From the NCBI GenBank assembly GCA_026391295.1, contig JAPLDS010000052.1, positions 18,209-82,208 of the forward strand: a DNA stretch of 64,000 bases, written 5' to 3'. The DNA is from Bacteroidia bacterium. GTDB lineage: Bacteria; Bacteroidota; Bacteroidia; Bacteroidales; Prolixibacteraceae. Below are positions 19,324-39,630 of this stretch, one piece after another. Each line of letters begins with the position of its first letter. Position 1 is the first letter of the stretch. Below the pieces are notes generated by a model. That model worked only from the letters and a program-made list of their open reading frames with translations. It did not search any database and had not been told where the DNA came from. The translations under genes were made by a program, and so were the position numbers.

Positions 19324-21570
19324 TTGATGAAAAAAATCGTCGCATTTTTTACCCTAGCTTATTCTCTTTCTAGTTTTGCTGTATTGGCTCAGCCTGGAAG
19401 TGCAGTTAAACCTGTTTTCAAGGATATTCCATTTTCTCAGAACTACAGTATAAAATATAAGCTTAAGGAAGAGGGACTAAAACTTGAAAAAGTCTTCGCC
19501 GATCGAAATGGGGCCATTCAAATTCTTTCATCTGCGGGCTTGTTAAAAACCTATGCTGGTGCATTCTTATATCCCGGAACCCTTGTCCCAGATTTGGCCT
19601 ACCGTCCAATGGGTGATAAGAAAATATCTAATCTTGGTGTGTTGCAAAATCAATTTATCTACTTAGATGATAAGGCTGTTTTAAGTAATGCTTGGGCTGG
19701 AAAATTCTATTCAAAACATGAAACTCCTGAAGCCAAAATCTTTGCTGTCTCTCCAGATTTTACCTCCCTTATTTCTGATGGCACATCATTAAAACTGGTG
19801 CAGGAATCTAAAAATACTTGGTCAGGAAAGCTAACTAATGATAACATTTTAGCGATAAAATATAACTCTGAAAATGGTCTATTTTGGATTTTAGGGACTA
19901 AGTCATTGAGCTCATATTCTTTAAAAGATCAGAAACTAAAATTGGTTTATGAAGGTGTCAATTTTACAGATTTTGACTTGACTGATGCGGGTAAAAAAGC
20001 TGTCATTGGCACATCAAACGGCTTTCTTGAAGTGAATATTCAAACGGGAAAACAGGTCGGTGATGTTTATCGTAAAATTCCTGTTACAGATATTACCTGT
20101 GTTACCACTATCAATGGGAAAGTATGGTTGGGCACATCGGATGGAGCTTTCATGATTCGCGGCGATGGTAAATATGATTATTACAACGGAGAACGTTGGA
20201 TCATTGGTGATGCGGTCAAACATATTGCAGCTGGACCAGATCACTCGGTGCTTATCCTTACCGATAAAGGTCTTGGACAGATCTGTTTTCAGCAAATGAC
20301 CCTGGAAGAGAAAGCATTGTTTTACGAAAAACAAGTCCGTCAACGCCATATCCGAAATGGCTTTAACTCTTCTCTTGAAGGGATGAAAGATGGAGACATC
20401 TCTACTGGACTATTGAAAGATTCAGATAATGATGGTCTATGGACTGCGATGTATTTGGGTGGTCAGATATTCAGATATGCGGCAACGAAGTCAGACGAAG
20501 CACTGCAAAACTGCTACGAATCGTTGGATGCTCTAGAGCGCTTGTATTCTATTAATTCAAATGCTGTTGGATTCCCCGCTCGATCATTTGAGCGCCGTGG
20601 CGATATAAACAGGTTGTCGGATCACGATCGTTGGAGGCACGCTGAGGACCCTGAATGGGATTGGAAAGCAACCACTAGTAGCGATGAGGCAATTGGTCAT
20701 ATTTTTGCTTTAGGTGCCATGGCCGAACTTATCAATGTGGAGCCGATGAAATCTCGAGCTATCCACTTAATTGATATTTTAATGCAACATATTGTTGACC
20801 ATAATTATTACTTGATTGACTGGGATGGCAAGCCAACGACATGGGGACGCTGGAATCCTGAATATGTGAATGCACGTCCAGTCATGGTTGGCGATCGGAA
20901 AATCTGCTCTTCGAATATTACTTCGATGTTGCAAACTGCCTACCACTTTACCCATAAAGAGATTTACAAGCAAAAAGCGCTTGAGCTTTTGTATAAGAAT
21001 GGTTATCTCGAGAACCTAATGCGCCCTATGAAATCAATTGGAGAGGCTCCTGCAAATTCAGATGAGTTGAGTAAAGATCTCTCAAATGGTTGGAATCACT
21101 CGGATGATGAGATGTATTTTATTGGCTATTGGGGTCTTTATCGTTATGCGCTAAATGCAGATCTGAAAACGCAGTATAAAGCTTCTATTATTGACCACTG
21201 GGAGATCGAACGGCCGGAGAAAGAGGCCGCTTGGAATATCTTCACCGCATTGGCTAGTAATGAGTTTGACCTAAAGGAATCAGTGTGGTGGCTTCAACGC
21301 TATCCACTTGATATGATTCACTGGTCTATTCAAAATAGTCATCGGAAAGATATTGAAATGGTTGCTCCGAATTTCAGACAGCAAACAATAACAGAGGTTT
21401 TACCTCCAGACGAACGACCTGTTCATCGCCACAATGGCAACATGTTTAGCTTGGATAATAAACGTAAACGAGGTGATGGAAATGGCGAAGAGAGTGCTGG
21501 CGATATCTGGCTGCTCCCTTATTGGATGGGGAGATACTTGGGCGTTATTAGCGCTCCGGTGAAAAAATAA
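19324..21570 (+). CDS. Secreted propeller plus alpha-helical toroid protein, family copy 1
   Basis: 748 aa with a signal peptide to about residue 23 (VLAQP). Residues about 30-330 are propeller-like, with repeats resembling the two-component-regulator propeller ('KVWLGTSDGAFMIRGDGKYD', 'YNGERWIIGD'). A linker helix 'MTLEEKALFYEKQVRQRHIR' leads to a helical, probably (alpha/alpha)-toroid domain. Conserved marks there are 'DSDNDGLWTAMYL', 'RYAATKSDEA', 'PARSFER', 'WDWKATTSSDEAIGH', 'DWDGKPTTWGRWNPE', 'NHSDDEMYF' and a terminal 'LPYWMGRYLG'. The helical fold with invariant acidic clusters suggests a glycan-active enzyme (lyase or hydrolase), but I cannot assign a CAZy family. Four relatives lie in this window, and the next gene is its closest. 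Confidence 0.8.
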   Translation: MMKKIVAFFTLAYSLSSFAVLAQPGSAVKPVFKDIPFSQNYSIKYKLKEEGLKLEKVFADRNGAIQILSSAGLLKTYAGAFLYPGTLVPDLAYRPMGDKKISNLGVLQNQFIYLDDKAVLSNAWAGKFYSKHETPEAKIFAVSPDFTSLISDGTSLKLVQESKNTWSGKLTNDNILAIKYNSENGLFWILGTKSLSSYSLKDQKLKLVYEGVNFTDFDLTDAGKKAVIGTSNGFLEVNIQTGKQVGDVYRKIPVTDITCVTTINGKVWLGTSDGAFMIRGDGKYDYYNGERWIIGDAVKHIAAGPDHSVLILTDKGLGQICFQQMTLEEKALFYEKQVRQRHIRNGFNSSLEGMKDGDISTGLLKDSDNDGLWTAMYLGGQIFRYAATKSDEALQNCYESLDALERLYSINSNAVGFPARSFERRGDINRLSDHDRWRHAEDPEWDWKATTSSDEAIGHIFALGAMAELINVEPMKSRAIHLIDILMQHIVDHNYYLIDWDGKPTTWGRWNPEYVNARPVMVGDRKICSSNITSMLQTAYHFTHKEIYKQKALELLYKNGYLENLMRPMKSIGEAPANSDELSKDLSNGWNHSDDEMYFIGYWGLYRYALNADLKTQYKASIIDHWEIERPEKEAAWNIFTALASNEFDLKESVWWLQRYPLDMIHWSIQNSHRKDIEMVAPNFRQQTITEVLPPDERPVHRHNGNMFSLDNKRKRGDGNGEESAGDIWLLPYWMGRYLGVISAPVKK

Positions 21571-21619
21571 AGTTCAATCCGTTAGCGGACGGATTAAACT
21601 TTGAATTATTTTTTTTTTA
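21571..21619 (+). terminator. Hairpin between family copies 1 and 2
   Basis: AGTT-c-AATCCGT (21571-21582) pairs with ACGGATT-a-AACT (21589-21600) around TAGCGG. A T-rich tract including a long T-run follows. It begins at the stop codon and probably terminates part of the transcription. Confidence 0.6.
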
Positions 21620-21643
21620 AAGTCTTATAAATTAAACCATAAA

Positions 21644-23747
21644 ATGAAAAAAGTTACTCTATTGGGTTTTATAGTAGCCCTACTATTTTGTTCGAAAATC
21701 AGTTTTGCTCAGACAACTGAGAAACACCTTGATAAGCCATTTATACAGGATTTTAGCGTTAAATATACACTTGAAGATCAGACTGTAATTTTAAAAAATG
21801 CAGCTGCTGATCACAATGGATATATTCAGATTCTCTCCTCAAAAGGGTTGCTTAGACCACGTAATGGTCAGTTTCTTTTTCCTGGAACGTTAGTCACAGA
21901 CCGTCAAGATCGTCCAACATCTGACAAGCATATTTCTAGCATTGCAACATTCCAAGACCAGTTGGTTTATCTTGATGATAAGGCTGTCTTTAGTAATGCT
22001 TGGGCTGGAAAATTATTTGTTAAACATGCTTTGCCAGGTGCTAACATTTTAACTGTTGGCAAGGATTTTGGATTTCTAATCTCAGATGGAAAAGTTTTAA
22101 AACTGATCTCTAATTCTACCGTTGCGTGGGAAGGATCGTTAGCTGGCGAATCTGTAAAAGAGATCAAGTTTGATGCGAAATCTAATCTTTACTGGATTTT
22201 AGGAGCCGCTTCGATACAGGTTTTCTCTCCAGACAAGAAACAACTTACAAAGGTTATGGATGGAACTACTTTTACTTGCTTAGCACCAGTTGCAGGAAAG
22301 GTTTTCGTAGGAACGAAAGATGGTTATTTAGAGCTAGATGCTAAGACTCAAAAACAACTAGGTGGAATCCATCAAAAAATGCCTTGGACTGAGATTACCT
22401 CTGCAAATGAGGTAAATGGAGAACTTTGGTTTGGGTCTACCTATGGTGCGATGATGCTTCGAGCAGATGGAAAATTTAACTATTTCGCCTCTAAACGTTG
22501 GCTCCCTTCCGACACGATCGTGAGTATCACCAAAGGTCCTGAGCATTCAGTTTTGGTCTTGACAAATGGTGGTATGGCACAGATCTCATTCAAGTCGATG
22601 ACTTTGGAAGAGAAGGCGATGTATTACGAAAAACAAGTACGTGACCGTCATATCCGACTCGGTTTTAATGCTACTATTTCGGGTATGACCAATGGTGATG
22701 TGACCACTGGAAGTCTTGAAAATTCAGATAATGATGGGTTGTGGACAACCATGTATTTAGCTGGAGAGACCTTCCGCTATGCAGTCACTAAATCAGACGA
22801 GGCGCTTCAGTATGTGCGCGAATCACTTGATGCTATTGAACGTTTATACACCATCAATCCATTGCACAATGGTTTCCCATCACGGTCTTTTGAAAGAGCG
22901 GGATATAACAAGACCAGTGAGCCTTGGCGGGCTACTGAAGATCCTGAATGGGATTGGAAATCAACAACAAGTAGTGATGAAGCCATTGGTCATATTTTTG
23001 CTTGTGGAGCCATTGCAGAGCTTGTGCCTGATCCAGCATTGAAGAAACAGGCGATTACGATTATTGACACCTTGATGTCGCATGTCGTGACAAACGATTT
23101 CTATATGATCGATTGGAATGGTCAGCCAACATAAGGATGCTGCATTCTTGCTTATGAAAAAGCACGGTTACCTCGAAAACCTGATGCAGCCAATGAAAGG
23201 AATAGGAATGGCTCCCAAAGATGCTGATGGCCTAAGTCAGAGATTATCGAGCGAATGGAATCACTCCGACGATGAGATGTATTATTGCGGATATTGGGGG
23301 CTTTACCGATATGCCCTTAATGATACCCTTAAGGCAAAATATAAAGAGGCAATAATCGATCATTGGGAAATTGAACGACCTGAAAAAGAGGGGCTTTGGA
23401 ATATCATGACCGCAATTGCAGGAGCGAAGAAAATTGATTTAAATGAAGCCATTTGGTACCTACAGCGCTATCCTCTTGATATGATTAACTGGACTGTTGT
23501 AGCGAGTCATCGAAAAGATATCGAGAAGATTGCCCCAAACTTCAGAAATCAAACAATTACAGAAGTCCTTCCTCCCGATGAGCTGCCGCTATTTAGACAT
23601 AACGAGAACCGTTTTAATCTAGAGGGTCATGACAATGGCAGTTCAGAACAAAGCGCAGGCGATATCTGGCTACTCCCTTATTGGATCGGTCGTTATCTAA
23701 ATGTGATTGGTGCTCCTGAAAAAGCAGCTGCTGTAGTAAAAAAATAA
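21644..23747 (+). pseudogene. Propeller plus alpha-helical toroid protein, family copy 2, broken by internal deletion and frameshift
   Basis: The first 496 codons (21644-23134) align along the whole of copy 1: signal peptide to 'SFAQ', propeller, linker 'MTLEEKAMYYEKQVRDRHIR', 'NSDNDGLWTTMYL', 'DPEWDWKSTTSSDEAIGH'. They then stop at 'DWNGQPT'. The rest continues in another frame from about 23130 ('KDAAFLLMKKHGYLENLMQP' onward) to 'LPYWIGRYLN'. Against copy 1, about 43 codons covering the conserved 'WGRWNPEYVN' block are absent, so this is not a simple one-base error. Residual identity to copy 1 elsewhere is high, so the loss looks recent, unless it is an assembly artefact. Confidence 0.85.
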
Positions 23748-23756
23748 GTGTTTTTG

Positions 23757-23807
23757 TATAGAGGAATAGGCGAAAGAATTTTCTTATCCCTGTTCCTCTA
23801 TTTTTTT
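23757..23807 (+). terminator. Imperfect terminator hairpin after family copy 2
   Basis: ATAGAGGAATAGG pairs imperfectly with CCCTGTTCCTCTAT. It is followed by a run of seven T residues at 23801-23807. Confidence 0.6.
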
Positions 23808-23865
23808 AAGTTAGATTCAATTCTATTGGTCTTGTTCTATTAAAACTAACTCAAAGCCATCCCTT

Positions 23866-25635
23866 ATGGTTCCATTCTCAAAAGTTTCTATTTTTCTGGT
23901 TTGTGCTGCATTTATTATACTATCATGTAGTCATCCTACTTCAACCCTTTCGGTAAAAGAGGTCATGGATAAGACCTTTACAAACATCTATCATACGATG
24001 CGTGCGGATGAATTGTCTGCATTGAATGAGCAGAAAGTTTTGAGCTTATTTACGCCAGACGAACATGAGGTATTGTCAACACGCCATTGGTCTTTCGACG
24101 TGAATACGCCTGTTGTCGTTTCTATTTTCCGAAGTATCGAACAAAAAACAGTCCCATTTTGGTTACCTGAGCAGGGTTTCACAAAAACAACTTTAACAGC
24201 AAAAAATGAAAATACAACCTATGAGGTATGGCAGAAAAAAATTCCTGCTGGTCATGTAGGACTTGGTGTCAATGGATTTGAAAATTACACCTTGCATTAC
24301 TTCGTTTCCGTTGCCCCACAGAGTAAAAGTGCTAAGCTAATATTAAGCAATCTCTTCCCCGCAAATCAAACTGTCGATTCGCTACGAGTTGGTGTTCCTA
24401 TTTATCACGATTGGGAAGAGTTAGTGTTAACTGAAATTCCTGCTGATTTGAAGGGAGAACAGCTACTTACAACAATCAGAGGTCGTGGTGTTGAAAGTCA
24501 TCTGATTGGTGCTTTTCGGAAGACTACCCATCCTTCGTCTGCGAAACCCGACCAAGTGATGCTCACCTGGAGTTCAGACCCTTCGACTGGAATTGATGTG
24601 CAGTGGCGCACTGACACCACAATTGCCACTGGAACTGTTAAGTATCGAATCAAAGGAACGAACGAAGAATTTGCTGCTTCAGCTACAAGCTATCGCATGG
24701 AAGATCGGGTGCTGATGAACGATCGGTATATCAATCGATTTACGGCGTCACTTCGAAATCTAAAACCAGCTACGACCTATGAATATTTAGTGGCGCCGCA
24801 ATCGCAGTGGAACGATCTTCAGTCCTTTTCTACACCAGCTCCTGATAACAAATTTGCATTTACTTGGTTTGGCGACACCCATTATTCGCCTAAATTCGGA
24901 GATATATTTGTTAAATCAGCGAAGACTTATCCGGATGCTGCCTTTTATTCCATCGCAGGTGATCAGGTTAGTGATGGGCTTTACCGTAATCAGTGGGATG
25001 ATCTATTTGAGTATTCGAAAGATGTTATCTCTCGTAAACCTTTCATGTCGGTATTGGGTAATCACGACGCTCGTTATGGTCTCGGAGCCTCGATGTATCG
25101 CGAGCTATTTAGTTATCCGAAAGATAGCCCAGTAGGTGTTGAACCTGAACGCACCTACGCTTTTGAATATAAGAACGCCCTATTTTTAATGATTGATTGT
25201 GTATCACCAATTGAGACGCAAAGTGCTTGGATTGAAAATCAACTGGCAAAATCAAAAGCAACTTGGAAATTTGCGATGTTCCATTTCCCTCCATATAACT
25301 GGGAAGAGCCCTATTTAGATATCCAAAAAGCATGGGTTCCAATTTTCGACAAGTATCATGTCGATATGGTGATGGGTGGGCATATTCATTATTACATGCG
25401 CTCAAACCCCATGAAAGCTGGCAAGGTTGTCTCTTCCTATAATGATGGAACGGCTTACATTATCTCAATTGGAATCGAGGCTCATGCCAGGGAGATGTCG
25501 CCTGAGCCTTATGCGGCTGTTCGAAATAACGAAGGTCCATTATTCCAAAATGTACGTATCAATGGTAATAAATTATCGTATGTCTCAGTGAATGCTGAAA
25601 ACAAGATTATTGACTCATTTGAAATAAAAAAATAA
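23866..25635 (+). CDS. Purple-acid-phosphatase-like metallophosphoesterase lipoprotein
   Basis: 589 aa. The lipoprotein signal ends at IILSC (Cys21). Residues about 20-220 are an unassigned beta-rich region. A fibronectin-III-like segment (about 220-325, 'PDQVMLTWSSDPSTGIDVQW') is typical of the purple acid phosphatase N-domain. The metallophosphoesterase core follows with dinuclear-metal motifs 'WFGDTHYSP', 'AGDQVSDG', 'VLGNHDARYG', 'FHFPPY' and 'GGHIHYYMRS'. It probably removes phosphate from a glycan or from released phospho-sugars at the cell surface. It lies among glycan-degradation genes on the same strand. Confidence 0.85.
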   Translation: MVPFSKVSIFLVCAAFIILSCSHPTSTLSVKEVMDKTFTNIYHTMRADELSALNEQKVLSLFTPDEHEVLSTRHWSFDVNTPVVVSIFRSIEQKTVPFWLPEQGFTKTTLTAKNENTTYEVWQKKIPAGHVGLGVNGFENYTLHYFVSVAPQSKSAKLILSNLFPANQTVDSLRVGVPIYHDWEELVLTEIPADLKGEQLLTTIRGRGVESHLIGAFRKTTHPSSAKPDQVMLTWSSDPSTGIDVQWRTDTTIATGTVKYRIKGTNEEFAASATSYRMEDRVLMNDRYINRFTASLRNLKPATTYEYLVAPQSQWNDLQSFSTPAPDNKFAFTWFGDTHYSPKFGDIFVKSAKTYPDAAFYSIAGDQVSDGLYRNQWDDLFEYSKDVISRKPFMSVLGNHDARYGLGASMYRELFSYPKDSPVGVEPERTYAFEYKNALFLMIDCVSPIETQSAWIENQLAKSKATWKFAMFHFPPYNWEEPYLDIQKAWVPIFDKYHVDMVMGGHIHYYMRSNPMKAGKVVSSYNDGTAYIISIGIEAHAREMSPEPYAAVRNNEGPLFQNVRINGNKLSYVSVNAENKIIDSFEIKK

Positions 25636-25713
25636 GTTGAAGAGTAATTATAGTGCCATGCAATCGAAGTGTGACAGAATGGTTAATTTGGTTCGTTTTA
25701 AACGTTGTTGTTT

Positions 25714-27537
25714 ATGAGAATAATATTCATATCGTTTATATTCATACTCTTTACGCAGGGATTATTCGCTCAGCCTTCGGTTGATAGGCTAATTCCAGTA
25801 CCCTTAAGCTCTGTTAAGGTAGAGGGTGAAATGGGGCGGCGTATTGATATTACCATTCTATCAAATTTGCTGGAACTCGACGTTGACAAAGATTTTTTGG
25901 CTCCATTTTTAGTAAAAGAGACGAAAAAGTCAAACTACATTGGTCTTGGCAAGTTAATCGATGCGACTGCGAAGTTTGCTGCTTATAGTGGAGACTCAAA
26001 GGTTATTGCTTTAAAAAATAAGTTAACTTCTTCGATTATTAAAGCGCAAGAAACAGATGGTTATCTGGGGAATATGGCACCTTCAAATCGAATGTGGAAG
26101 CTTTGGGATGTGCATGAAGTGGGTTATATTATATATGGACTAATCACCGACTATACTCTTTTTGGTTCTGAGTCGTCTCTTGCTGCGGCAAAAAAGGGTG
26201 GCGATTATCTTCTTCGAAATTGGTCGTCAATGCCCATTGGATGGCAGGATAGTACTGGGGTAGGACTACATGTTGCAGGTATCGGAATCGATCGCACCAT
26301 GATTGCTTTATTTAAGGCAACGAAGGATCGACGTTACCTAGATTTCTGTGATAAGGTGTTGCATTTACACCAGTGGAACCCTGGAATAGTGCTTGGTCGT
26401 CGTAAATTAGTCGAAGGTCATATCTATAGTTATATGGCTGCTTCCCTAGCTCAATTGGAACTCTATCGTCTTGAGCAGGATAAGAATCTTTTGATCCCTA
26501 CCATGAACGCGATAGACTTTTTATTTAATCAAAATGGGGTGGCCATCAGTGGTGGCGCAGGTCAAGTGGAGATCTGGACCAACGATCAAGATGGAGGCCG
26601 GGATCTGGGTGAGACATGTGCAACAGCTTATCAACTCCGTGTCTACGATAATCTCCTGCGGATGAAAGAGGATTCTAGATATGGCGATATCATGGAACGC
26701 ACCATCTTCAATGCCTTGTTTGGTGCGCAATCAACAGATGGTCGCAAAGTTCGTTATTTTACCCCATTAGAAGGCGATCGATCCTATCACGATGCAGACA
26801 CCTATTGTTGTCCAAATAATTACAGACGAATACTCGCAGAACTTCCAAGCATGGTTTATTATAAATCGGGTAATGGAGTAGCAGTGAATCTTTATACATC
26901 CTCTAAAGCAACGATTCAGCTTGGAGCGAATCGGAAAGTTGGTTTGACTCAGCAGACTGATTATCCTAATTCTGGTCAGGTTATTTTGAAGATTGATCCA
27001 TTAACTACAGCCGTCTTTCCGGTCAAACTTCGGATCCCATTGTGGTGTAAAAATGCTTCTGTTGCTATCAATGGGGTGATAGCTAAGGTTAACTGTAAAC
27101 CAGGATTTTTTGCTATTCTTGAACGAGAGTGGAAGCGTGGAGACCAGATCACGTTGCAATTACCTATGGAGTGGCGTCTTGTAAAAGGTCGTGAGCGTCA
27201 AGCAGGTCGTGTTGCGATTATGCGCGGTCCATTACTTTTTGGTCTCAATCCGACTCAAGAAAAATCGCTTGCGAATAGATCGGCTGCGGATTTAGGTCGA
27301 TTAATCGTTTCTAAGAAAATGTTAGATCCCCTGGCTGTTCATGCGGATGGATTTTATCCCACAGCCATCGGATGTCAGTTAAAAGCAGGATCGAAAATGT
27401 GGGCGATGGATAACCCTGGAGATCTTGATCTTTTATTTTCTGAGTTTGCCGATCCTGGGATTCGGTGCACCTATTTTAAGACCCCTAATCTTACTGAAGC
27501 AGTAGAGGATGAATTAATAGGTTTGAATTTTAATTAA
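25714..27537 (+). CDS. GH127-family beta-L-arabinofuranosidase-like enzyme
   Basis: 607 aa from the ATG at 25714; the listed TTG at 25705 adds three residues before a clean signal peptide (MRIIFISFIFILFTQGLFAQ). The catalytic domain is an (alpha/alpha)6 barrel ('KWDVHEVGYIIYGL'-like region, 'GHIYSYMAASLAQL'). The cysteine/zinc site of GH127 is visible as 'DLGETCATAY' (Glu and Cys ligands) and 'DTYCCPNNYRRILAELP' (paired Cys, one being the nucleophile in HypBA1). A C-terminal beta domain carries 'VKLRIPLWCKNASVAING'. It should release terminal beta-L-arabinofuranose or a related furanoside. It is co-directional with flanking genes and may share their transcript. Confidence 0.9.
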   Translation: MRIIFISFIFILFTQGLFAQPSVDRLIPVPLSSVKVEGEMGRRIDITILSNLLELDVDKDFLAPFLVKETKKSNYIGLGKLIDATAKFAAYSGDSKVIALKNKLTSSIIKAQETDGYLGNMAPSNRMWKLWDVHEVGYIIYGLITDYTLFGSESSLAAAKKGGDYLLRNWSSMPIGWQDSTGVGLHVAGIGIDRTMIALFKATKDRRYLDFCDKVLHLHQWNPGIVLGRRKLVEGHIYSYMAASLAQLELYRLEQDKNLLIPTMNAIDFLFNQNGVAISGGAGQVEIWTNDQDGGRDLGETCATAYQLRVYDNLLRMKEDSRYGDIMERTIFNALFGAQSTDGRKVRYFTPLEGDRSYHDADTYCCPNNYRRILAELPSMVYYKSGNGVAVNLYTSSKATIQLGANRKVGLTQQTDYPNSGQVILKIDPLTTAVFPVKLRIPLWCKNASVAINGVIAKVNCKPGFFAILEREWKRGDQITLQLPMEWRLVKGRERQAGRVAIMRGPLLFGLNPTQEKSLANRSAADLGRLIVSKKMLDPLAVHADGFYPTAIGCQLKAGSKMWAMDNPGDLDLLFSEFADPGIRCTYFKTPNLTEAVEDELIGLNFN

Positions 27538-27558
27538 TTACATATAAACTAATACACT

Positions 27559-30310: not shown

Positions 30311-30345
30311 ACTTTGTACCTTGAATTTCTTTCTAAACTAAACAT

Positions 30346-32724
30346 ATGAAAACTTTTCTTTCTCGCTTATTCCTCCTAATTTTTTTGCTGGCCGCAGGAA
30401 TTCAATATTCTGCCCAGGCTCAGTCCGATAAAGCGACTGACCATGTCAATCCATTGTTAGGGACCGACTTTTTCGGACATACTTATCCAGGTGCTGCCTT
30501 GCCTTTTGCAATGGTTCATCTCAGTCCAGATATGAATACTCAGGGCTGGACCTACTGCGCTGGATATATCTATTCCGACAACTCCATTATGGGCTTTAGT
30601 CATACCCACTGGAGCGGTGTGGGGATGGTGAATGGGGGCGAAGTCTTGCTAATGCCTAATGTTGGCGATAAGTTGCATACGACACCAGGTGCTCCTGAGA
30701 ATCCAGGCGAAGGATATCGTTCGCGCTTTGATCATGCGGATGAAGTGGCTTCTCCGGGGTATTACTCCGTTGTGCTTAAAGATTACAAGGTCAAGGTTGA
30801 GCTAACAGCCACTAAGCGAGCTGGATTTCATCGGTATACTTTCCCAAAAGCTAATAATGCGCGGGTGATCTTAGATTTAGGTCATCAGATAGGGGAGAAT
30901 AAATCGGAGCAATTATCTGAGTTGCGAATTATTGAAAATAAACGAATCGAAGGGGTGAAAAGCGCTGGACTAGGAAAAGTTTATTTTGTTGCTGAGTTTA
31001 GTAAGCCATTTGCCTATTATGGAACATTTGATAATGATCTAAAAACACCAGAATCTGGCGGTAGCATCTGGCCATATAAAAATGGGGAAGTGGGTAAAAA
31101 TATTGGAGCCTTCGTAAATTTCAAGACTACTGAAAACGAACAGATTTTAGTGAAAGTTGGAATTAGCTATACTAGTCTTGAGGGTGCTCGTAACAACCTA
31201 CATACTGAGATTCCAAATTGCGATTTTGATGGGATCCGTGGCGCTGCGCAAAAAACGTGGGAGAGTGAGCTGTCACGCGTTAAGATTGATGGTGCAACAG
31301 ACGATCAAAAGGAGATATTCTATTCCGCACTTTATCACTCTTTGTTAGCTGAATATATTTCGCAAGATGTGGATGGTAAGTATTATGGTTCCGATAAAAA
31401 AATTCATGAGGCAAAAGGGTATGATTTCTATGGCTCATTCTCTTGCTGGGATACCTATCGTTCGCAGCATCCTTTGTTGACCGTTATCGCTCCCGACCAC
31501 GTGAATGATATTGTGAAGTCGATCGTTGCCAAGACGAAAGACTACGGCTGGTTGCCTGCTCAGCATTTTATGAATTTATTTGGAGAGACTATGGTTGGCG
31601 ATCATCTTATTCCAATTATTGTAGATGCTTATATCAAAGGTTTCCACGATTTTGATGTTGAATTTATTTATAAAGCGATGCGCACCAAGGCCTTAGAAGA
31701 ACCAAAGCCTCCTGTGCCTCATCATGCGGGTCGTTCAGGCTTGAAATATTATATTGAGCTTGGCTACACGCCGGTGGATAAAGTTACGGAGTCGGTGCCG
31801 AATACCTTGGAGCTTGCTTACGACGATTGGTGTATTGCTCAGTTAGCGCAGGCCTTGGGTAAAAAAGAAGACTATGCGTTGTTTATGAAACGGGCCTCTA
31901 ACTATCAAAATCTTTGGGAGCCAAAATCAAAGTTTATGCGCCCTAAGCTTACCGATGGAAATTGGTTGGAACCATTAAATGGTCGCGAGCAGGAGATTGT
32001 TAAAGTTGGCGAGCATTCATATTATAAATATTTTGATCCATTGTTGGTTGGAAAACGACCAAGTCGCCACTATACCGAATCAAATGCATGGCAATATATC
32101 TGGTCAGTACAGCATGATGTAAAAGGTTTGATAAATTTATTTGGAGGTAACAAAGCATTTACCGCGAAGCTCGATACCTTCTTTCAGATGAGTCCGAATA
32201 TTTCTGCTCCGAAATATGTTGGTGTGGTAGGTACGATTGGTCAATATGTTCATGGCAATCAGCCATCTCATCATGTCTCCTATCTGTATGATTTTGCTGG
32301 TGAGCCTTGGAAGACACAGAAATGGGCTCGGGAAGTCACTGTTGAGCTATACCGCAGTGGCCCTGGCGGAATTTGTGGTAATGAAGATATGGGCTCACTT
32401 TCGTCGTGGTATGTTTTAAGTGCGATGGGTATTTATCCGGTTACGCCGGGTAGTCCGTATTATGCCATTGGTAGTCCATTGTTTGGCAGCGCCACTATAA
32501 AGGTTGGTAATGGAAAGACCTTTGTGATCGAAACGCATAATAATTCAGCAGAGAATAAATATATCCAGTCGGCGAAACTTAATGGCAAGCCCTTAAACAA
32601 AACATGGCTGTCATACAAAGAAATTACCGACGGTGGAAAAGTCCAATTTGAGATGGGACCAACACCGAATAAAAACTGGGGAAGCAAACCGCAAGATGCT
32701 CCTCCTTCGATGAGTGTACGTTAA
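30346..32724 (+). CDS. GH92-family alpha-mannosidase
   Basis: 792 aa with a signal peptide to 'QYSAQAQ' (about 25), the normal GH92 length. Family blocks appear in order: 'HVNPLLGTDFFGHTYPGA' and 'WTYCAGYIYSDNSIMGFSHT' in the N-terminal beta-sandwich, then the (alpha/alpha)6 barrel with 'FSCWDTYRSQHPLLTVIAPD', 'ESNAWQYIWSVQHDV', 'GGICGNEDMGSLSSWYVLSA' and 'MGIYPVTPGSPYYAIGSPLF'. GH92 enzymes are calcium-dependent exo-alpha-mannosidases with inverting mechanism (1,2-, 1,3-, 1,4- or 1,6-linkages). The last gene of the plus-strand block, it ends in a bidirectional terminator. Confidence 0.96.
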   Translation: MKTFLSRLFLLIFLLAAGIQYSAQAQSDKATDHVNPLLGTDFFGHTYPGAALPFAMVHLSPDMNTQGWTYCAGYIYSDNSIMGFSHTHWSGVGMVNGGEVLLMPNVGDKLHTTPGAPENPGEGYRSRFDHADEVASPGYYSVVLKDYKVKVELTATKRAGFHRYTFPKANNARVILDLGHQIGENKSEQLSELRIIENKRIEGVKSAGLGKVYFVAEFSKPFAYYGTFDNDLKTPESGGSIWPYKNGEVGKNIGAFVNFKTTENEQILVKVGISYTSLEGARNNLHTEIPNCDFDGIRGAAQKTWESELSRVKIDGATDDQKEIFYSALYHSLLAEYISQDVDGKYYGSDKKIHEAKGYDFYGSFSCWDTYRSQHPLLTVIAPDHVNDIVKSIVAKTKDYGWLPAQHFMNLFGETMVGDHLIPIIVDAYIKGFHDFDVEFIYKAMRTKALEEPKPPVPHHAGRSGLKYYIELGYTPVDKVTESVPNTLELAYDDWCIAQLAQALGKKEDYALFMKRASNYQNLWEPKSKFMRPKLTDGNWLEPLNGREQEIVKVGEHSYYKYFDPLLVGKRPSRHYTESNAWQYIWSVQHDVKGLINLFGGNKAFTAKLDTFFQMSPNISAPKYVGVVGTIGQYVHGNQPSHHVSYLYDFAGEPWKTQKWAREVTVELYRSGPGGICGNEDMGSLSSWYVLSAMGIYPVTPGSPYYAIGSPLFGSATIKVGNGKTFVIETHNNSAENKYIQSAKLNGKPLNKTWLSYKEITDGGKVQFEMGPTPNKNWGSKPQDAPPSMSVR

Positions 32725-32729
32725 TCTCA

Positions 32730-32767: not shown

Positions 32768-32786
32768 AGTGAATTCTGGTTAAACC

Positions 32787-33824
32787 TTATTTTACAATTG
32801 GAGTTAACACAAGATTCCGATATGATACCTTACCGTGATCTCCTTGAAGATAGATAGGACCAGGGGTAAATACATCTGATTTCATCGCACCTCCAGTTGG
32901 GCCGAAGATAGGTTGGTTATCGATGATTTTTACTCCATTCAAGATCACCGTGGCATGACGGTCGCATAGGGTGATATCCATCGATTGCCATTCGCCTGCA
33001 GGCTTCTCAGCTGCTGAAGTTGGTGTGATCCGACTATATACAGCGCCCATATTATGCGGGTCAAGCTCGTGTTTGTATGAATCGACTACTTGGACTTCAT
33101 ACATACCACGAAGGTAAACACCACTGTTGCTTCCGGCAGGAACATTGACCTCTAATTTTAAATTGAAATCTTCAAACTCTTGCTCTGTCCGAAGGTTGCC
33201 ATAGCTTACATGAGCCCCTTCAACTTGAACAGGATCATTGGAAAGCAAACCGTTTGAAACAGAGAAGCCATTTTTCTGCTTGTCATTGATCAGTTTCCAG
33301 CCACTAAGATCTTTCCCATTAAACAAGGTTGTTGGAGTTCCAAACTTCACTTTTGATAAGTCAGGAGCAGGAGGTGGCGCTGGTAATTTTGTTCCACTAA
33401 ATGCCGTAGAATCAACTCCAGTTCCATCACGATGAGGGTTGTAGATATACCCAACAATCTTATCGCCTTGTCTTTTTACTTCAAGCCAATTGGTAACTTG
33501 ATGCGAGCGTAAAGCTTCGTTCTTCTCGTTTTTTGTCCGAATAACTTTGTCTCCTCTCTCGACAATCAGCGAATTATTATGCAAGTAAACATTAGCCACT
33601 GGCACGACACTTCCTCCACCCCAAAGTAGGTCGGCATCGATATAGCCCTTCTCTTGACGGACTTCCAGCCATCCCACAGAGCCTCCTTTGATGTCGATCG
33701 TCCACTGACCAAAGAACTCATTTACTTCAATTTTTTTTGCTGCTGCAACTTTCGGTTTGAAATTGCAAGAAGTCAAAGACAATGCTGCCAACACGACTCC
33801 TAGATAGATAAATTTAGCTTTCAT
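32787..33824 (-). CDS. DUF1080 (3-keto-disaccharide hydrolase-like) lipoprotein
   Basis: 345 aa from the ATG at 33824 (MKAKFIYLGVVLAALSLTSC, lipobox Cys20). The ORF-track start at 33929 adds 35 residues unlike a signal sequence. Residues about 40-140 form a small beta domain ('GQWTIDIKGGSVGWLEV'). The C-terminal concanavalin-like DUF1080 domain (PF06439) follows: 'LFNGKDLSGWKLIND', 'NLRTEQEFEDFNLKLEV', 'GSNSGVYLRGMYEVQV' and 'GPIYLQGDHGKVSYRNL'. The family includes 3-keto-glycoside hydrolases/lyases that act after a Gfo/Idh/MocA oxidoreductase makes the 3-keto sugar. An oxidoreductase of that superfamily is encoded at 46704-48056. Confidence 0.85.
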   Translation of the reverse strand: MKAKFIYLGVVLAALSLTSCNFKPKVAAAKKIEVNEFFGQWTIDIKGGSVGWLEVRQEKGYIDADLLWGGGSVVPVANVYLHNNSLIVERGDKVIRTKNEKNEALRSHQVTNWLEVKRQGDKIVGYIYNPHRDGTGVDSTAFSGTKLPAPPPAPDLSKVKFGTPTTLFNGKDLSGWKLINDKQKNGFSVSNGLLSNDPVQVEGAHVSYGNLRTEQEFEDFNLKLEVNVPAGSNSGVYLRGMYEVQVVDSYKHELDPHNMGAVYSRITPTSAAEKPAGEWQSMDITLCDRHATVILNGVKIIDNQPIFGPTGGAMKSDVFTPGPIYLQGDHGKVSYRNLVLTPIVK

Positions 33825-33975
33825 TGATTTAAAAATTAGTTTGTAAAATTTAAACTGACAGGATAAATAATTAGTTTTGAGGCAGGTTATTCGGCTATTC
33901 AATAATACCACATATTTGTAATATATCAAACTTCTTAATGATAATTCCTTCGCTGTTTTTTCGTTCGAAATCTAT

Positions 33976-33983
33976 TAAATTTG
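33976..33983 (+). promoter_or_regulatory. Candidate -7 element TAAATTTG for the TPR gene
   Basis: TAAATTTG matches TAnnTTTG. It lies about 110 bp before the preferred ATG (34096). No clear -33 element is present. Confidence 0.35.
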
Positions 33984-34095
33984 GAGTGCTTAAACTTCAG
34001 GAAAAATAAATAGGTTAAACATTTTACCTATCCTTGTTGTAGTGATTACAGAAGATAAGGTTCCCTCGTCTTTTAAAGAATATTGCAGTTTAATT

Positions 34096-35265
34096 ATGGA
34101 ACAAAATATCGATTATATAGCCCTTAGTGAAAACGGAAACAAAAAGTTTACCGACGAAGATTACCCAGGAGCTATCTTAGATTACACTCAAGCTATCGCG
34201 CTAAATTCGAATGATGCTGAGCTTTACTATAACCGTGGCAACGCGAAATACAATTTAAATGATTTTTTCGGTGCTATTGCCGACTATAATGTGGCACTCG
34301 AGATTGACTCTGGCTACGACATGGTATACAATAATAGGGGAAATGCAAAGAATGCTTTGAACGATTATCGAGGAGCTATTGCTGATTATTCTGCTGCTAT
34401 AACCGCCGATGCAGAGGATGCCACTGCGCTTTATAATAGAGGTTTTGCGAAGAATAGCATTGAAGATTTTAGAGGGGCAGTCATTGATTTTACTGCAGCT
34501 ATTGCAATCGATCCGATGCATATTGAGGCTTATTACAATCGAGGGGTAAGCAATTTTTTCTTGCGGAATTATAAAAGTGCCATCACCGATTATTCAAAAG
34601 TCATCTCCTTGGAGCCATACGATTCAATGGCATTTTGTAGTAGGGGATTGGCCCGAAAAGGGTTAGATGATTTCGATGGATCGATCCGTGATTTTACGAT
34701 GGCTATTGATCTTAATGGAGAGGATGTTGTTTCGTATTACAATAGAGCGTTAGCAAAAAATGCCCTATTTGACTATCGAGGTGCAATTGATGATTTCTCT
34801 ATGGTCCTTGTTCTTAGTCCAAAATATACCTTGATCTATAATCTTCGTGGTCATGCCAAAGGTAATCTTCAAGATTATGCAGGAGCCATAGCCGATTATA
34901 CCAAAGTTATAGAGGCGGAGCCAAACGACGTTCTGGCTTGGTCTAGCCGAGGATTTGCGAAAAATGCCATACAAGATTTTAGGGGAGCTGTAGCCGATTA
35001 TACCAAAGTCATCGAGCTAAATTCAACCTATCCCTCCATTTACACCCATCGCGGGAATGCGAAATGCAACCTTAAACTTTATGGTGGAGCAGTAGCTGAT
35101 TTCACTTCTGCTATCCAACTTAATCCTGATGATGCTGAATCGATCTATGCTCGTGGATTAACACGCCTCGATCTGGGACAACAGCATGAGGCAGCGTTAG
35201 ATTTCCAACGAGCTGCTGAGTTGGGTTCTGCGGATGCCATAGAAGCTATTGCGAAATACTGCTAA
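34096..35265 (+). CDS. TPR-repeat protein with about eleven tandem repeats
   Basis: 389 aa from the ATG at 34096 (MEQNIDYIALSENG); the track start is a GTG 54 bp upstream. Almost the whole protein is a regular 34-residue TPR array: units such as 'YNRGNAKYNLNDFFGAIADY', 'RGFAKNSIEDFRGAVIDF' and 'RGFAKNAIQDFRGAVADYTK', about eleven in all, ending in 'HEAALDFQRAAELGSADA'. There is no signal peptide, so it is probably cytoplasmic. TPR arrays are protein-interaction scaffolds; the partner is unknown. It runs convergently with the minus-strand cluster, with only 24 bp between the stop codons. Confidence 0.88.
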   Translation: MEQNIDYIALSENGNKKFTDEDYPGAILDYTQAIALNSNDAELYYNRGNAKYNLNDFFGAIADYNVALEIDSGYDMVYNNRGNAKNALNDYRGAIADYSAAITADAEDATALYNRGFAKNSIEDFRGAVIDFTAAIAIDPMHIEAYYNRGVSNFFLRNYKSAITDYSKVISLEPYDSMAFCSRGLARKGLDDFDGSIRDFTMAIDLNGEDVVSYYNRALAKNALFDYRGAIDDFSMVLVLSPKYTLIYNLRGHAKGNLQDYAGAIADYTKVIEAEPNDVLAWSSRGFAKNAIQDFRGAVADYTKVIELNSTYPSIYTHRGNAKCNLKLYGGAVADFTSAIQLNPDDAESIYARGLTRLDLGQQHEAALDFQRAAELGSADAIEAIAKYC

Positions 35266-35289
35266 ATAGCATCAAATCATTCGTCTGTC

Positions 35290-37455
35290 TTATTTCTGGA
35301 AGTAACCATGATACCTCCCCATCCAATAGGGAAGTAGGAAATAGGCCCCATCATCTTCATGAGTTCCATTTGAACCTATTATAAACTCTCGTGGATTTGA
35401 ATTCGCCTTCACAATACCTGCCTCTGGCGTAGGAATAATTCGTGTAGCTTGCGCTTTTCTAGAGCGGTCAATAAGCTGGTCGGCTTGCAGATCCCAGCGG
35501 TGACTATTATCCATAGTCCAGGTGATCATATCCATGGGGATAAGCTGAAGTTCCTCTTTGGCAATTGCTATATCACAATCTTTCTTGAGTGCTACACTTG
35601 CGATTATGTTCCATAGCGGAGTTCGATCGGGCTTCGCTGCGTTCCATGCTCGTTGAATACTTGTGGTATAAGTGGGAAGATGTTTAGTGTCTTTTGAATA
35701 AGCAAACAGTGAATAATAAGGAAGGTAGGTTAAGATATCATCTGAGTGGCTATTCTCATATGGAACGGCTCTCTTGGCCTCCAGTGTATTCTCTGCATAG
35801 TGATGCTTTTGAATCAGCATCTGATAAGCCTTTTCAAATTTTTGATCTCCAGTAATGTATACGGCAACTTTTAGGAAGGAGAGTATCTGCAGGGAATTAG
35901 TGCCTCGCTCATACCACCGACCTGGAACATTGTTCAGCGAATCGGGATTCCAAATGGCCCATTGTGTAGGCTTTCCATCGAAGTCAATAAATTGGAAGTT
36001 ATTCGTGATAATATGAGTCATTTCACGGTCAACGAGCCCTTTTATTCGCTTTTTTGTTGGAGCATCTGCAACTAGATCATAAAAAAGTGGAATGGCAAAT
36101 AGATGTCCGGCAAGCTCATCCGAGCTCGCATCATCGAGCCATTGCCACTTCCCATCGGCTGAAGGATGCCATTTTTTTGGATAGGGCGAACGCGACTGGA
36201 TCACGGTATCAGAAGCGGCTGCAAAAGATCGTCCAGGCAACCCGCTGATTCCAGTTGCTGTTTCTAGTCGTTCTAGAGCTTCGTAGCTGTTAATTGCATT
36301 TTTTTTCGCTTCTGGATCTTTAGTGACTGCATATCTAAAGCACTCAGCTGCCAAATAGATTGCCGTCCAGAGTCCATCGTTATCGTTGGTGGTTTTTTTA
36401 CTCGTCGACAAGTCTCCTGGGGTAGTTAATAGCGATTGACTAATTAACCCATATCGGTTGTGGCGCAGGCTGATTCGTTCTTCAAAGACCGAAGCTTTCT
36501 GCTCCAAGGTCATGGGTGTTTGTTTAATCTGACTGATTCCTGAGGGTGTTGCAATCCATACGGTATGCTCGTCCAGTGGAAGTATGTCATTGATTTTATT
36601 GTTTGGCAACCATCTCTTTCCATTGTAATAATGCCATGTTGAATCTTTCTTGATGGCTCCTTTATCGGTTCCAAGCCAGATAGTTTTATTGAAGGAGTGA
36701 ATGGATGTGATTGGACCATAAGGGAGTCCGTCGGCACCTCTTAAAAGCCAATGGTCGCCATCTTTAGCTATACATCCGAGGGCAAAAAGTCCACCAAACA
36801 CCACGTCATTTTTAGCTGTTGTCTCAAGGGCAAAATACTGTCTCTTTAGCCCTTTTGCCATCAGATGGGCATCCATATTAAACCACCCTGCCGCAATTCG
36901 GAGCAAAAGTCCATTATTGGTCGCAACCCATAAATCGCCTTTTTGATCGGCGGCTATAGCATGTACCCTTGACCCCGCTGCAATTGAGACTGAATGCCAC
37001 GAACCATCATAGGTTAAAAGACCATTATTGGTGCCAACATGTAGCACCTTTTCATTCTCCCAGGCTAGACAACTAATGGTATCGTTTTGCGAATTCTCGG
37101 GAAGTTTAAGAAGAACGGTACTATCTCCATTTTGAATAAAATTCTTAGATGCCAGCCATATCTCATTTTTCTTGTCGAGCGTTGCCGTTTCCCAAACAGA
37201 ATGGTTTGGTTTACCTGTCCAACTATTGTTTTGGAAGGAATAAATCCCATTTGACGTAACACAAGTAACTTTTTCCTTTGTTTTGAAAAGCTTTAAAATA
37301 TTCGAAGATGCTAAATCGGGTAATTTTATATCGCTCTTTATCTCTTGTAGATAGGTTTCGTGAACGAGCTTTAAACCCACAGAGGGTTGAGATTTCGTGT
37401 TGAACTGTATTGAAAATACAAGAAGAATACTGCAGATTAATCGATCGATTTTCAT
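35290..37455 (-). CDS. Secreted propeller plus alpha-helical toroid protein, family copy 5
   Basis: 721 aa, signal peptide to 'FNTKSQ' (about 22). The N-terminal propeller (about 40-320) holds 'GDLWVATNNGLLLRIAAGW', 'LLRGADGLPYGPITSI' and 'WHYYNGKRWLP'. The linker 'MTLEQKASVFEERISLRHNR' leads to the helical domain with 'TNDNDGLWTAIYLAAECFRY', 'PGRSF', 'WQWLDDASSDELAGH', 'DFDGKPTQWAIWNPDSL', 'NSHSDDILTYLPYYSL' and terminal 'LPYWMGRYHGYF'. Relative to copy 4 the SSDE and HSDD blocks are kept, but the WGxWNP block reads WAIWNP. It is the last gene of the minus-strand unit, 21 bp after copy 4. Enzyme function is inferred. Confidence 0.8.
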   Translation of the reverse strand: MKIDRLICSILLVFSIQFNTKSQPSVGLKLVHETYLQEIKSDIKLPDLASSNILKLFKTKEKVTCVTSNGIYSFQNNSWTGKPNHSVWETATLDKKNEIWLASKNFIQNGDSTVLLKLPENSQNDTISCLAWENEKVLHVGTNNGLLTYDGSWHSVSIAAGSRVHAIAADQKGDLWVATNNGLLLRIAAGWFNMDAHLMAKGLKRQYFALETTAKNDVVFGGLFALGCIAKDGDHWLLRGADGLPYGPITSIHSFNKTIWLGTDKGAIKKDSTWHYYNGKRWLPNNKINDILPLDEHTVWIATPSGISQIKQTPMTLEQKASVFEERISLRHNRYGLISQSLLTTPGDLSTSKKTTNDNDGLWTAIYLAAECFRYAVTKDPEAKKNAINSYEALERLETATGISGLPGRSFAAASDTVIQSRSPYPKKWHPSADGKWQWLDDASSDELAGHLFAIPLFYDLVADAPTKKRIKGLVDREMTHIITNNFQFIDFDGKPTQWAIWNPDSLNNVPGRWYERGTNSLQILSFLKVAVYITGDQKFEKAYQMLIQKHHYAENTLEAKRAVPYENSHSDDILTYLPYYSLFAYSKDTKHLPTYTTSIQRAWNAAKPDRTPLWNIIASVALKKDCDIAIAKEELQLIPMDMITWTMDNSHRWDLQADQLIDRSRKAQATRIIPTPEAGIVKANSNPREFIIGSNGTHEDDGAYFLLPYWMGRYHGYFQK

Positions 37456-37476
37456 CCTGAAAATTTCTTATTAAAC

Positions 37477-39630
37477 CTATTTCTCAATGATCAATCCATG
37501 ATACCTTCCCATCCAATAGGGAAGTAAGAAAAATGCGCCGTCGTCCTCGCCATGGCCATCCGAGCCTGAATCATAGAGATAGGTGTTACTGTTCCATTTT
37601 GATATGCCTCGCTCTGGAGTTGGAATGGGCCTAATTGCTTGTGCCTTGCCAAAACGATCGTTTAACTGGTCTCGGGGTAAATCCCAACGATGACTATTCT
37701 CCATTCGCCAGGTGATTAGATCCATAGGGATTTGTTGAAGCTCCTCAAGGGCAATCTTAAGATCGCAATCTTTTTTGAGCCCAATACTCGAAATGATGTT
37801 CCAGATTGGAATCCGATCGGGTTGCTCAACACGCCAACTGCGTTCGGTACTTTTTATAAATTTTGGCATTAGCTGAGCATCATTGGCATACCGCAGTAAG
37901 GTGTAGTTTGGTAAGAAGGCCAGTTCGTCATCCGAATGGTTGATATCGAAAGGTCCATACATCTTTTGCGGTATCATATTTTCGACATAGTGGTGTTTTT
38001 GTGTCAAGGTCTGATAGGCTTTTTCGAATTTCTGATCCCCGGTAACATGAAGACTCGCCTTTAGGAAGGCCAGTATCTGCATCGAGTTAATCCCTTTTTC
38101 GTACCACCAATTATTTGAGAAGTTTAAGGAGTCAGGAGTCCATACGGCCCAGCGTGTCGCTTTCCCATCGAGGTCTACGAGTTGGAAATTGTGATCAACG
38201 ATGGTTCTCATCAATCTATGGACCAAGCTTTTAACCCGCTCTTTCATCTCAACTTCTGCCACTAAATCAAAAAATAGGGGATAGGCAAACATATGACCAA
38301 CAATCTCGTCGGAGCTGGTATCACCCTTCCATTTCCATTTTTGATCAGGGGTTAAATGCCACTCCCCACCTTTGCCCGTATCTTCATCCGCTGCGGTGAT
38401 TGATCGTGCCGGAAAGCCAGGCATTCCTGTCAGCTTCTCCAGTCGTTCGAGTGCTTCAAATGCTTTATTGGCATTTTTTTTCGCTTCGGGCTCTTTGGTA
38501 ACTGCATATCGGTAGCTCTCTGCCGCTAGATAAATAGCTGTCCACAGTCCATCGTTATCATCTGTTCCAGTCCGACTTGTTGAAAGATCACCTGAAATAC
38601 TTAAGCTAGATCCGCTAACCAATCCATAGCGGTCGTGACGCAGCCTGATTCGCTCTTCAAAGGCTTGTGCTTTTTGCACTAAGGTCATGCTAACCTCTTG
38701 AATCTGATTGATCCCTTTCGAAGTAGCCACCCAGGTGGTATGTTCGTCGAATGGGAGAATATCGTTGGTCTTATTGTCAGAAAGCCATCGTTTTCCATTG
38801 TAGTAATGCCAGGTTTTGTCTCTCTTGATAACACCTTTGTCGGTACCCAGCCAGGTGGCCTCTTTTATTGTTTTAATCACGGTGATTGGTCCATAAGGCA
38901 ATCCATCGGCGCCTCTTAAGAGCCAGTGATTACCATCCGCAGCAATGCATCCAAAAGAGAATAGCCCACCGAATAAAACATCTCCAGCAGTTTTCCCATT
39001 TTGTAAGGCTGAATAATAACGTTTCAGACCGTTGGCCATTAAATCTTCATCTAAGTTAACCCATTGGTTATTCATCCGACGCAAGAGTCCTCCAGTTGAG
39101 GCTGCCCATAAATCACCTTTGGAATCTCTTAAAATTGAGTTTACTCGTTTTCCTGTTGAGCATGGGATCTCTGTCCAGCTGCCATTCCACGAGAGTAATC
39201 GATTTGTTGTTCCAATCCAAAGCGTTTCATTTTCTAGATAGAGACTTACAATGGTGTCTTGAGATGCTGTTTCCGGCAGGGTTAATTTTTTATCCTCACC
39301 CTCTTTTTGAATTGTATTCTGATTGGCAAGCCACACTTTGCCCAGCTTATCTATGGTGGCAGTAAGCCAGCCGGTTCCAGATGGTTTTCCTATCCAAGCT
39401 CCCTTTTCATAGCGAAAAACACCATTGGAGGCAACCGCAATAACCTTGTTCTCCTCCTTGAAGAGCTTAATAATTGTTGATTCAGCTGATTGAGGTAAGG
39501 CAATCTTAGTGCTTATCTCTTGGTAATACTTTCCGCTAATTACTGGCTTAATGGATTGTGCTGCAGCGGTCAAGCAGATTGCAGAAAATAAGATGCTAAT
39601 TAGGCTGGATAAGATGATTCTTCGTTTCAT
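37477..39630 (-). CDS. Secreted propeller plus alpha-helical toroid protein, family copy 4
   Basis: 717 aa, signal peptide to 'LTAAAQ' (about 24). It has the same two-domain plan: propeller (about 30-320; 'DLWAASTGGLLRRMNNQWVN', 'WHYYNGKRWLSDNKTND'), linker 'MTLVQKAQAFEERIRLRHDR', and helical domain with 'TDDNDGLWTAIYLAAESYRY', 'PARSITAADED', 'WKWKGDTSSDEIVGHMF', 'DLDGKATRWAVWTPDSL', 'NHSDDELAFLPNYTLLRY' and 'LPYWMGRYHGLI'. It is nearest to copy 5 immediately downstream (tandem duplication). It follows the broken aldolase gene after 20 bp. Confidence 0.8.
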   Translation of the reverse strand: MKRRIILSSLISILFSAICLTAAAQSIKPVISGKYYQEISTKIALPQSAESTIIKLFKEENKVIAVASNGVFRYEKGAWIGKPSGTGWLTATIDKLGKVWLANQNTIQKEGEDKKLTLPETASQDTIVSLYLENETLWIGTTNRLLSWNGSWTEIPCSTGKRVNSILRDSKGDLWAASTGGLLRRMNNQWVNLDEDLMANGLKRYYSALQNGKTAGDVLFGGLFSFGCIAADGNHWLLRGADGLPYGPITVIKTIKEATWLGTDKGVIKRDKTWHYYNGKRWLSDNKTNDILPFDEHTTWVATSKGINQIQEVSMTLVQKAQAFEERIRLRHDRYGLVSGSSLSISGDLSTSRTGTDDNDGLWTAIYLAAESYRYAVTKEPEAKKNANKAFEALERLEKLTGMPGFPARSITAADEDTGKGGEWHLTPDQKWKWKGDTSSDEIVGHMFAYPLFFDLVAEVEMKERVKSLVHRLMRTIVDHNFQLVDLDGKATRWAVWTPDSLNFSNNWWYEKGINSMQILAFLKASLHVTGDQKFEKAYQTLTQKHHYVENMIPQKMYGPFDINHSDDELAFLPNYTLLRYANDAQLMPKFIKSTERSWRVEQPDRIPIWNIISSIGLKKDCDLKIALEELQQIPMDLITWRMENSHRWDLPRDQLNDRFGKAQAIRPIPTPERGISKWNSNTYLYDSGSDGHGEDDGAFFLLPYWMGRYHGLIIEK

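Follow-up and report, generated by a model that had tools for sequence, protein, structure and literature searches.

A family of secreted proteins, in which a helical domain is predicted to adopt the known (alpha/alpha)6-barrel fold and probably acts on carbohydrates, is represented by seven copies in a single freshwater Bacteroidota genome. In a search with each species represented by one genome, at least 569 relatives were confirmed, distributed over more than 10 phyla, and for this unassigned family we found neither a Pfam or NCBIfam profile, nor a PDB sequence relative, nor a function in the literature searched. Because no library searched matches it and because it spans many phyla, it may constitute a new group of enzymes that degrade glycans; it is probably a new CAZy family, as set apart by comparison with Pfam, NCBIfam and the PDB rather than with dbCAN/CAZy. 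If its members are true enzymes, they would supply a missing step of glycan turnover by bacteria of freshwater, soil and sediment.

The window, that is, the whole 64,000-nucleotide stretch of contig JAPLDS010000052.1 that was analysed, holds five copies (P1 to P5), which together with the relatives that share their helical domain make up what we call the barrel family; residue numbers are those of P1. P1 (717 amino acids; 37477..39630, minus strand) consists of a signal peptide, a seven-bladed propeller (residues ~35-315) and an (alpha/alpha)6 barrel (316-717), as read from its open reading frame (ORF) and AlphaFold2 (AF2) model; the helical domain, taken as the family core from the model and from conservation over 166 sequences, corresponds to 37477..38685 on the same strand. 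Its sister P2 (721 amino acids; 35290..37455, minus strand) is 57% identical to it (E 1e-272) and gives a Reg_prop match at E 1.8e-9. P3 (769 amino acids; 27559..29868, plus strand) forms a separate subfamily by ORF, motifs and tree, and P4 (747-748 amino acids; 19327..21570, plus strand) belongs, by ORF, loci and tree, to a subfamily linked to metallophosphoesterases. The P4 frame had been listed from 19324, where the start codon is TTG (38% identity to P1, E 2e-89); the ATG directly after it, at 19327, is the likelier start. P1 to P4 are intact ORFs of 717-769 amino acids, each with an N-terminal signal-like peptide.

P5, by comparison with an intact sibling in another genome (G016; 759 amino acids, 96% identical), is broken: an N-terminal part (21644..23134, plus strand) ends at a premature stop within the barrel domain, a C-terminal remnant (23118..23747, plus strand) lies in another frame, and about 41 codons are lacking between the two. 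The genome is a draft assembly, and the relatives with names that come closest to it are Bacteroidia/Prolixibacteraceae metagenome-assembled genomes (MAGs); the damage may therefore be of recent origin or stem from an error of assembly. All five genes that the first-pass annotation had listed, the broken copy at 21644 included, were thus recovered as ORFs, but its count of five holds for the window alone: the family is more widespread than that annotation knew, and the genome carries two further copies, both on contig C51 (L005 and L007). The motifs it had described as shared fared unevenly. DNDG and SSDE are present in 5/5 window copies, P5 among them, as claimed; D-x-DGKxTxW is seen in 4/4 intact copies; and the terminal PYWMGRYxG is exact in three, but P3 reads DYWMGRYHG and P5 PYWIGRYLN. 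PARS and NHSDDE are kept in some copies and not in all, the variation already described.

The barrel was modelled with AF2 from 78 aligned helical-domain sequences (mean pLDDT 94.0, pTM 0.94); full-length P1 was modelled at pLDDT 91.2 and pTM 0.90. The barrel model has 12 main helices, outer and inner in alternation as read from helix order, the outer ones at positions 2-16, 66-86, 145-164, 218-230, 273-290 and 309-318 of the domain and the inner ones at 45-63, 125-141, 197-215, 251-266, 293-303 and 384-395. As modelled, the helical domain is an (alpha/alpha)6 barrel, which makes specific the helical toroid proposed earlier. The N-terminal domain, previously described as regulator-propeller-like, does give Reg_prop matches in Pfam; in the P1 model it has seven blades of four strands each, the circle being closed where strand 35-43 packs against 288-315 (read from AF2 strand order). 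The high pTM suggests that propeller and barrel are held in a fixed mutual arrangement. In a fold search with the full-length model, the propeller came out as similar to virginiamycin B lyase and to the propellers of the sensors BT4673 and BT4663, and no enzyme combining a propeller with an (alpha/alpha)6 barrel occurred among the best 50 PDB fold matches.

Conservation was assessed over the 166 sequences, equivalent to 57 effective sequences at 70% identity. A level of 98% or more is reached by, among others, D358, N359, D360 (100%), G361, W424, S439, D441 (100%), G489, T492, W494, Y548, D567, R648, D650, Y705, W706, R709 and Y710; S440 is also listed among the conserved barrel residues, E442 reaches 96%, and His332 is invariant or near-invariant. 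Four of the five aspartates at this level (D358, D360, D441 and D567) sit at N-termini of inner helices; those of the first, second and fourth inner helix are marked by D358-G361, S439-E442 and D567. Averaged around the N-termini, conservation is 0.99, 0.85 and 0.86 for these three helices and 0.74 for inner helix 6, as against 0.61 and 0.64 for inner helices 3 and 5, 0.74 for outer helix 1 and 0.42-0.51 for outer helices 2-6. In the (alpha/alpha)6 fold the inner-helix N-termini form the rim of the active site, so that the conserved acids would, by helix topology, be placed where a catalytic pair is expected; the invariant acids noted earlier are thus predicted to lie along the rim of the modelled barrel, where they may cluster.

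Across the relatives, the barrel is preceded by anything from ~30 to 680 residues. Many members from outside the Bacteroidota keep no more of the propeller than its final one to three blades, and in these a conserved RWLP-like stretch comes directly ahead of the barrel. Two (L072 and L107) have a barrel and no propeller at all; judged from these sequences, the barrel is the core of the family and the propeller is dispensable in distant members. Among the matches listed, the top loci come from Bacteroidota, KSB1, Acidobacteria, Verrucomicrobia, Planctomycetota, Armatimonadota, Poribacteria, Hydrogenedentota, Lentisphaerae, Elusimicrobia, Gemmatimonadetes and Firmicutes. Within the Bacteroidota the distribution is patchy (7/396 evenly drawn genomes, counting the window's own), and the host's own family, the Prolixibacteraceae, holds many copies. 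Weak matches (E 1e-4 to 1e-10), which probably include propeller-only proteins, were left out of the count of relatives, and a plasmid collection gave no match to the barrel family. In a planctomycete MAG, a DegT/DnrJ/EryC1 sugar aminotransferase domain seemingly precedes the barrel in one fused protein (L094, 8312-11197), which could be genuine or an assembly fault. A member 49% identical to P1 lies on a contig (L056) that was assigned to the bin of a Thermoproteales archaeon, likely reflecting contamination of the MAG, though transfer could also account for it.

In a tree of barrel domains, P1/P2, P3, P4 (with the C51 copy L005) and the C51 copy L007 fall into separate deep subfamilies, and the nearest relatives of every window copy sit in other genomes. 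Recent amplification of a single gene, considered as a source of the copies, is ruled out by this tree. The earlier description of five paralogues sharing one architecture stands insofar as their homology is far above chance, but they represent separate old subfamilies rather than five alike copies of one gene. As these subfamilies also have differing neighbour genes, the earlier inference that five copies imply one activity central to the locus is weakened.

The surroundings of the copies bear out the glycan-degrading context previously proposed, with SusC/SusD-like genes, GH92, GH127, GH106 and GH31 nearby. P4 is preceded by a SusC/SusD-like pair (13923..18972, plus strand; from similarity between loci and sequence reading), itself preceded by a 420-residue probable membrane protein (12138-13400, plus strand) that has no Pfam match above cut-off and has homologues near family genes in L048, L050, L123 and L134. 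Between P5 and P3, all on the plus strand, are a purple-acid-phosphatase-type metallophosphoesterase (23866..25635; Pur_ac_phosph_N 8e-16, Metallophos 8e-14), a recurrent neighbour of the P4/P3 subfamilies, and a GH127-type beta-L-arabinofuranosidase-like enzyme (25705..27537; Pfam scan). P3 is followed by a GH92 alpha-mannosidase-like enzyme (30346..32724, plus strand; Pfam scan) and a 3-keto-disaccharide hydrolase domain protein of the DUF1080 type (32787..33929, minus strand; PF06439 E 3e-42). P1 is adjoined on the minus strand by a DHDPS-family aldolase gene (39651..40522), broken in frame (frames -1 and -3, 40522-40091 and 40094-39654) and intact, at 302 amino acids, in the near-identical relative L039. 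Beyond it on that strand lie two ~780-residue proteins (40583-42925 and 42954-45293) with no confident Pfam match and one weak match to a GH67 N-terminal domain (E 0.0067), which look from their sequences like an unassigned glycosidase family conserved beside P1; a neutral-ceramidase-like protein (45290-46588; PF04734 E 4e-24), conserved in P1-type loci; and a GFO/IDH/MocA oxidoreductase (46704..48056) related to the glycoside 3-dehydrogenase BT_2158, below the cut-off of that model. BT_2158 is needed by B. thetaiotaomicron for disaccharide use (PMC11300592). A GH106 rhamnosidase (53315-56294, plus strand) seemingly continues from one ORF into a second that overlaps it in a different frame, and the first of them matches only part of the profile.

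Two kinds of neighbourhood recur. P1/P2-type loci present SusD, the GFO/IDH/MocA oxidoreductase, the ceramidase-like protein, two GH67-like proteins and the DHDPS aldolase, followed by family genes, with DUF1080 nearby. P4/P3-type genes are accompanied by metallophosphoesterases, the purple-acid-phosphatase type in 26/40 fetched loci, a second in 13/40 and a third in 11/40, together with GH92 (14/40), BNR_2 (12/40) and DUF3748 (8/40); SusC or SusD occurs in about half of the 40. These loci were chosen for carrying the family and several come from related genomes, so that the counts are descriptive, with no background rate. The DUF3748 protein lies directly beside the P4-type gene (L120, 11740-13209; L123, 7429-8796; L134). 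No operon is shared in distant phyla beyond scattered carbohydrate genes. The make-up of a P4/P3-type locus (SusCD, family enzymes, phosphoesterases and, in many cases, GH92) would suggest a glycan that carries phosphate, and we found no account of how such a glycan is broken down; a paper on an alpha-mannan locus mentions no phosphatase (PMC9213526), and we found no papers on a 'regulator propeller' in polysaccharide loci.

The claim that the family is unmatched was borne out in the libraries used for comparison: no Pfam, NCBIfam or PDB sequence family matched. Significant Pfam matches within the barrel were found in 0/78 members, with single weak matches to C5-epim_C (E 0.0047) and Hepar_II_III_N (E 0.018), one member each. 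NCBIfam gave weak matches on window proteins, chiefly to the propeller-bearing PorZ; PDB sequence searches, by single protein and by profile, returned nothing, and a viral fold library gave no match at E<=0.001. The fold-prediction check that had been proposed did recover a superfold. With the barrel model, the best Foldseek match was a cellobiose 2-epimerase (E 7e-6), at a TM-score of only 0.50 and 11% identity, followed by GH76, GH88, GH9 and GH146, the best matches being mostly (alpha/alpha) barrels that act on sugars.

More remote kinship was sought with hhalign, using profiles of N-acylglucosamine 2-epimerase (AGE), GH88/105, GH127, C5-epimerase and GH144 built from whole genomes. The 78-sequence profile gave 70% with AGE, 31% with C5-epimerase, 20% with GH127, 3% with GH88 and 0.2% with GH144; with the 166-sequence profile AGE rose to 86%, and over the two profiles C5-epimerase ranged over 31-44%, GH127 20-22%, GH88 2.6-7% and GH144 0.2-0.3%. 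GH144 apart, the reference families are closer to one another (AGE-GH88 96%, AGE-GH127 95%, AGE-C5-epimerase 93%). Because AGE scores higher to each of these three than the barrel family does to any, the latter is placed by profile outside the AGE/GH88/GH127/C5-epimerase group, with AGE nearest. The GH144 profile was linked to none of the other barrel families tested; since none detects it, the result excludes GH144 itself and not remote kinship with its clan.

We favour, with a probability of about 0.5, the reading that these proteins are secreted carbohydrate-active enzymes with an (alpha/alpha)6 catalytic unit and an aspartate acid/base set, likely catalyzing inverting hydrolysis, and with the propeller as an accessory. 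The active site would lie at the end of the barrel where the inner-helix N-termini converge, with Asp360 and Asp441, and probably Asp567, as the acid/base set, and invariant Trp, Tyr and Arg residues holding the sugar; single-displacement (inverting) hydrolysis of a glycosidic bond would be the most likely reaction. Propellers of the P1 kind sense oligosaccharides in Bacteroides hybrid two-component systems, and here the propeller would be a rigid accessory that probably aids substrate binding or shapes the substrate site. The paralogues, as several old subfamilies in glycan-utilisation loci, probably cut different linkages in one or more complex glycans. These may be phosphorylated, as the recurrence of phosphoesterases in P4/P3-type loci suggests. 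An inverting hydrolase is preferred because of where the aspartates fall, because glycosidase genes lie nearby and because this genome has no above-cut-off GH88/GH105 gene. Against it, catalytic residues cannot be assigned by homology, profile similarity to GH88 and GH127 is insignificant, the nearest superfamily (AGE) is non-hydrolytic, and distant phyla show no conserved glycan operon. The barrel-only members and the named aspartates open this reading to direct test.

Many (alpha/alpha) toroids are lyases, and the barrel could instead beta-eliminate a uronic-acid polysaccharide by means of catalytic Tyr, Arg, Asn or His, the DHDPS-type aldolase beside P1 handling a 2-keto-3-deoxy product. 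Tyr548, Tyr705, Tyr710, Arg648, Arg709, Asn359 and His332, all invariant or nearly so, would suit such chemistry, as would the DHDPS-family gene adjoining P1 in relatives, the GH67-like genes nearby and the two weak Pfam matches. The most constrained charged positions, however, are aspartates, the DHDPS link is confined to the P1 subfamily, and the Pfam lyase matches are single and sub-threshold. Furthermore, GH88/GH105 enzymes normally process the unsaturated products of uronate lyases, and the host genome has no GH88/GH105 gene above cut-off, as against 36/41 genomes of its family that carry one; for this last reason in particular, we regard a uronate lyase as unlikely.

Rather less probable still is a non-catalytic role, in which the protein would bind glycans or serve as a scaffold and so offer substrate to adjacent phosphatases and glycosidases. 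The repeated adjacency to metallophosphoesterases would fit such a role, as would the resemblance to BT4673 and BT4663, the best structural matches, propellers of this type being known to bind or sense ligands. On the other hand, the barrel Asp, Trp, Tyr and Arg residues are kept across very divergent sequences in the manner of an active site, and L072 and L107 keep the barrel though they lack a propeller. An AGE-type sugar epimerase or isomerase, to which the best fold and profile matches point, is likewise improbable, because the catalytic His and Glu are missing: H273, E276 and H404 (numbering of the G000 homologue) are invariant in 30 AGE sequences, whereas the barrel family has no conserved His at the aligned helix (LNSLEILSFL) or at inner helix 6, a mapping that is approximate given the weak alignment. 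The low TM-score also speaks against it, as does secretion, AGE enzymes being usually intracellular. Kinship with the SGL clan, for which the domain order of PgSGL4 argues (PMC12102758), is least probable of all, given the negligible GH144 similarity, the absence of SGL structures from the best 50 fold matches, the differing propeller and additional C-terminal domains of PgSGL4, and the lack of a glutamate as invariant as the one that defines the clan.

We put forward, tentatively and at somewhat under even odds, a broader view: a new phylum-crossing CAZyme family, as distant from known barrel families as any tested, made up of old subfamilies of different specificity, one of which would act, in concert with two or three metallophosphoesterases, on a glycan that is phosphorylated and has no known degradation pathway.

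Among known systems, AGE and cellobiose 2-epimerase (PF07221; PDB 3vw5, 4z4l) come nearest, sharing the (alpha/alpha)6 barrel as both best fold and best profile match; in contrast to them, the barrel family adds a propeller, is secreted and lacks the conserved catalytic His/Glu, and PF07221 matched none of the 78 members at E<=0.1. GH76, GH88/GH105, GH9 and GH127/GH146 have the same kind of barrel, with acidic residues at the ends of the inner helices, and a GH127-type gene lies in the same locus. They differ in that PF07470 (GH88/GH105) and PF07944 (GH127/GH146) match none of the 78 members, profile similarity being as low as given above; GH76 and GH9, for which the comparison used the Pfam scan and the fold search, gave no family HMM match and a TM-score of ~0.5. 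The C-terminal domain of D-glucuronyl C5-epimerase (PF06662) is likewise a helical barrel acting on glycans, but it matches 1/78 members and aligns with shifted helical registers; identity with it was rejected when follow-up of the E 0.0047 match gave insignificant profile similarity. The propellers of the hybrid two-component sensors BT4673 and BT4663 (PF07494; PDB 3ott, 4a2l) resemble those of the window in repeat and fold, in an alignment that covers the propeller only, whereas the window propellers are fused to a barrel, without kinase or membrane part. GH144 (PF10091) membership is contradicted by the profile comparison, and, as for the clan-defining residues of XcSGL (E239, F286, Y367), conservation over 166 sequences shows no barrel-family Glu above 96%, E442 being the best. 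Closest in domain order is PgSGL4 of Photobacterium gaetbulicola, of SGL clan Group 4, for which no substrate was found: it too is secreted, with an N-terminal propeller followed by an (alpha/alpha)6 barrel, but its propeller has six blades as opposed to seven here and it carries extra C-terminal domains (PMC12102758). Since PgSGL4 joins both domains, the combination of a propeller with an (alpha/alpha)6 barrel has a precedent.
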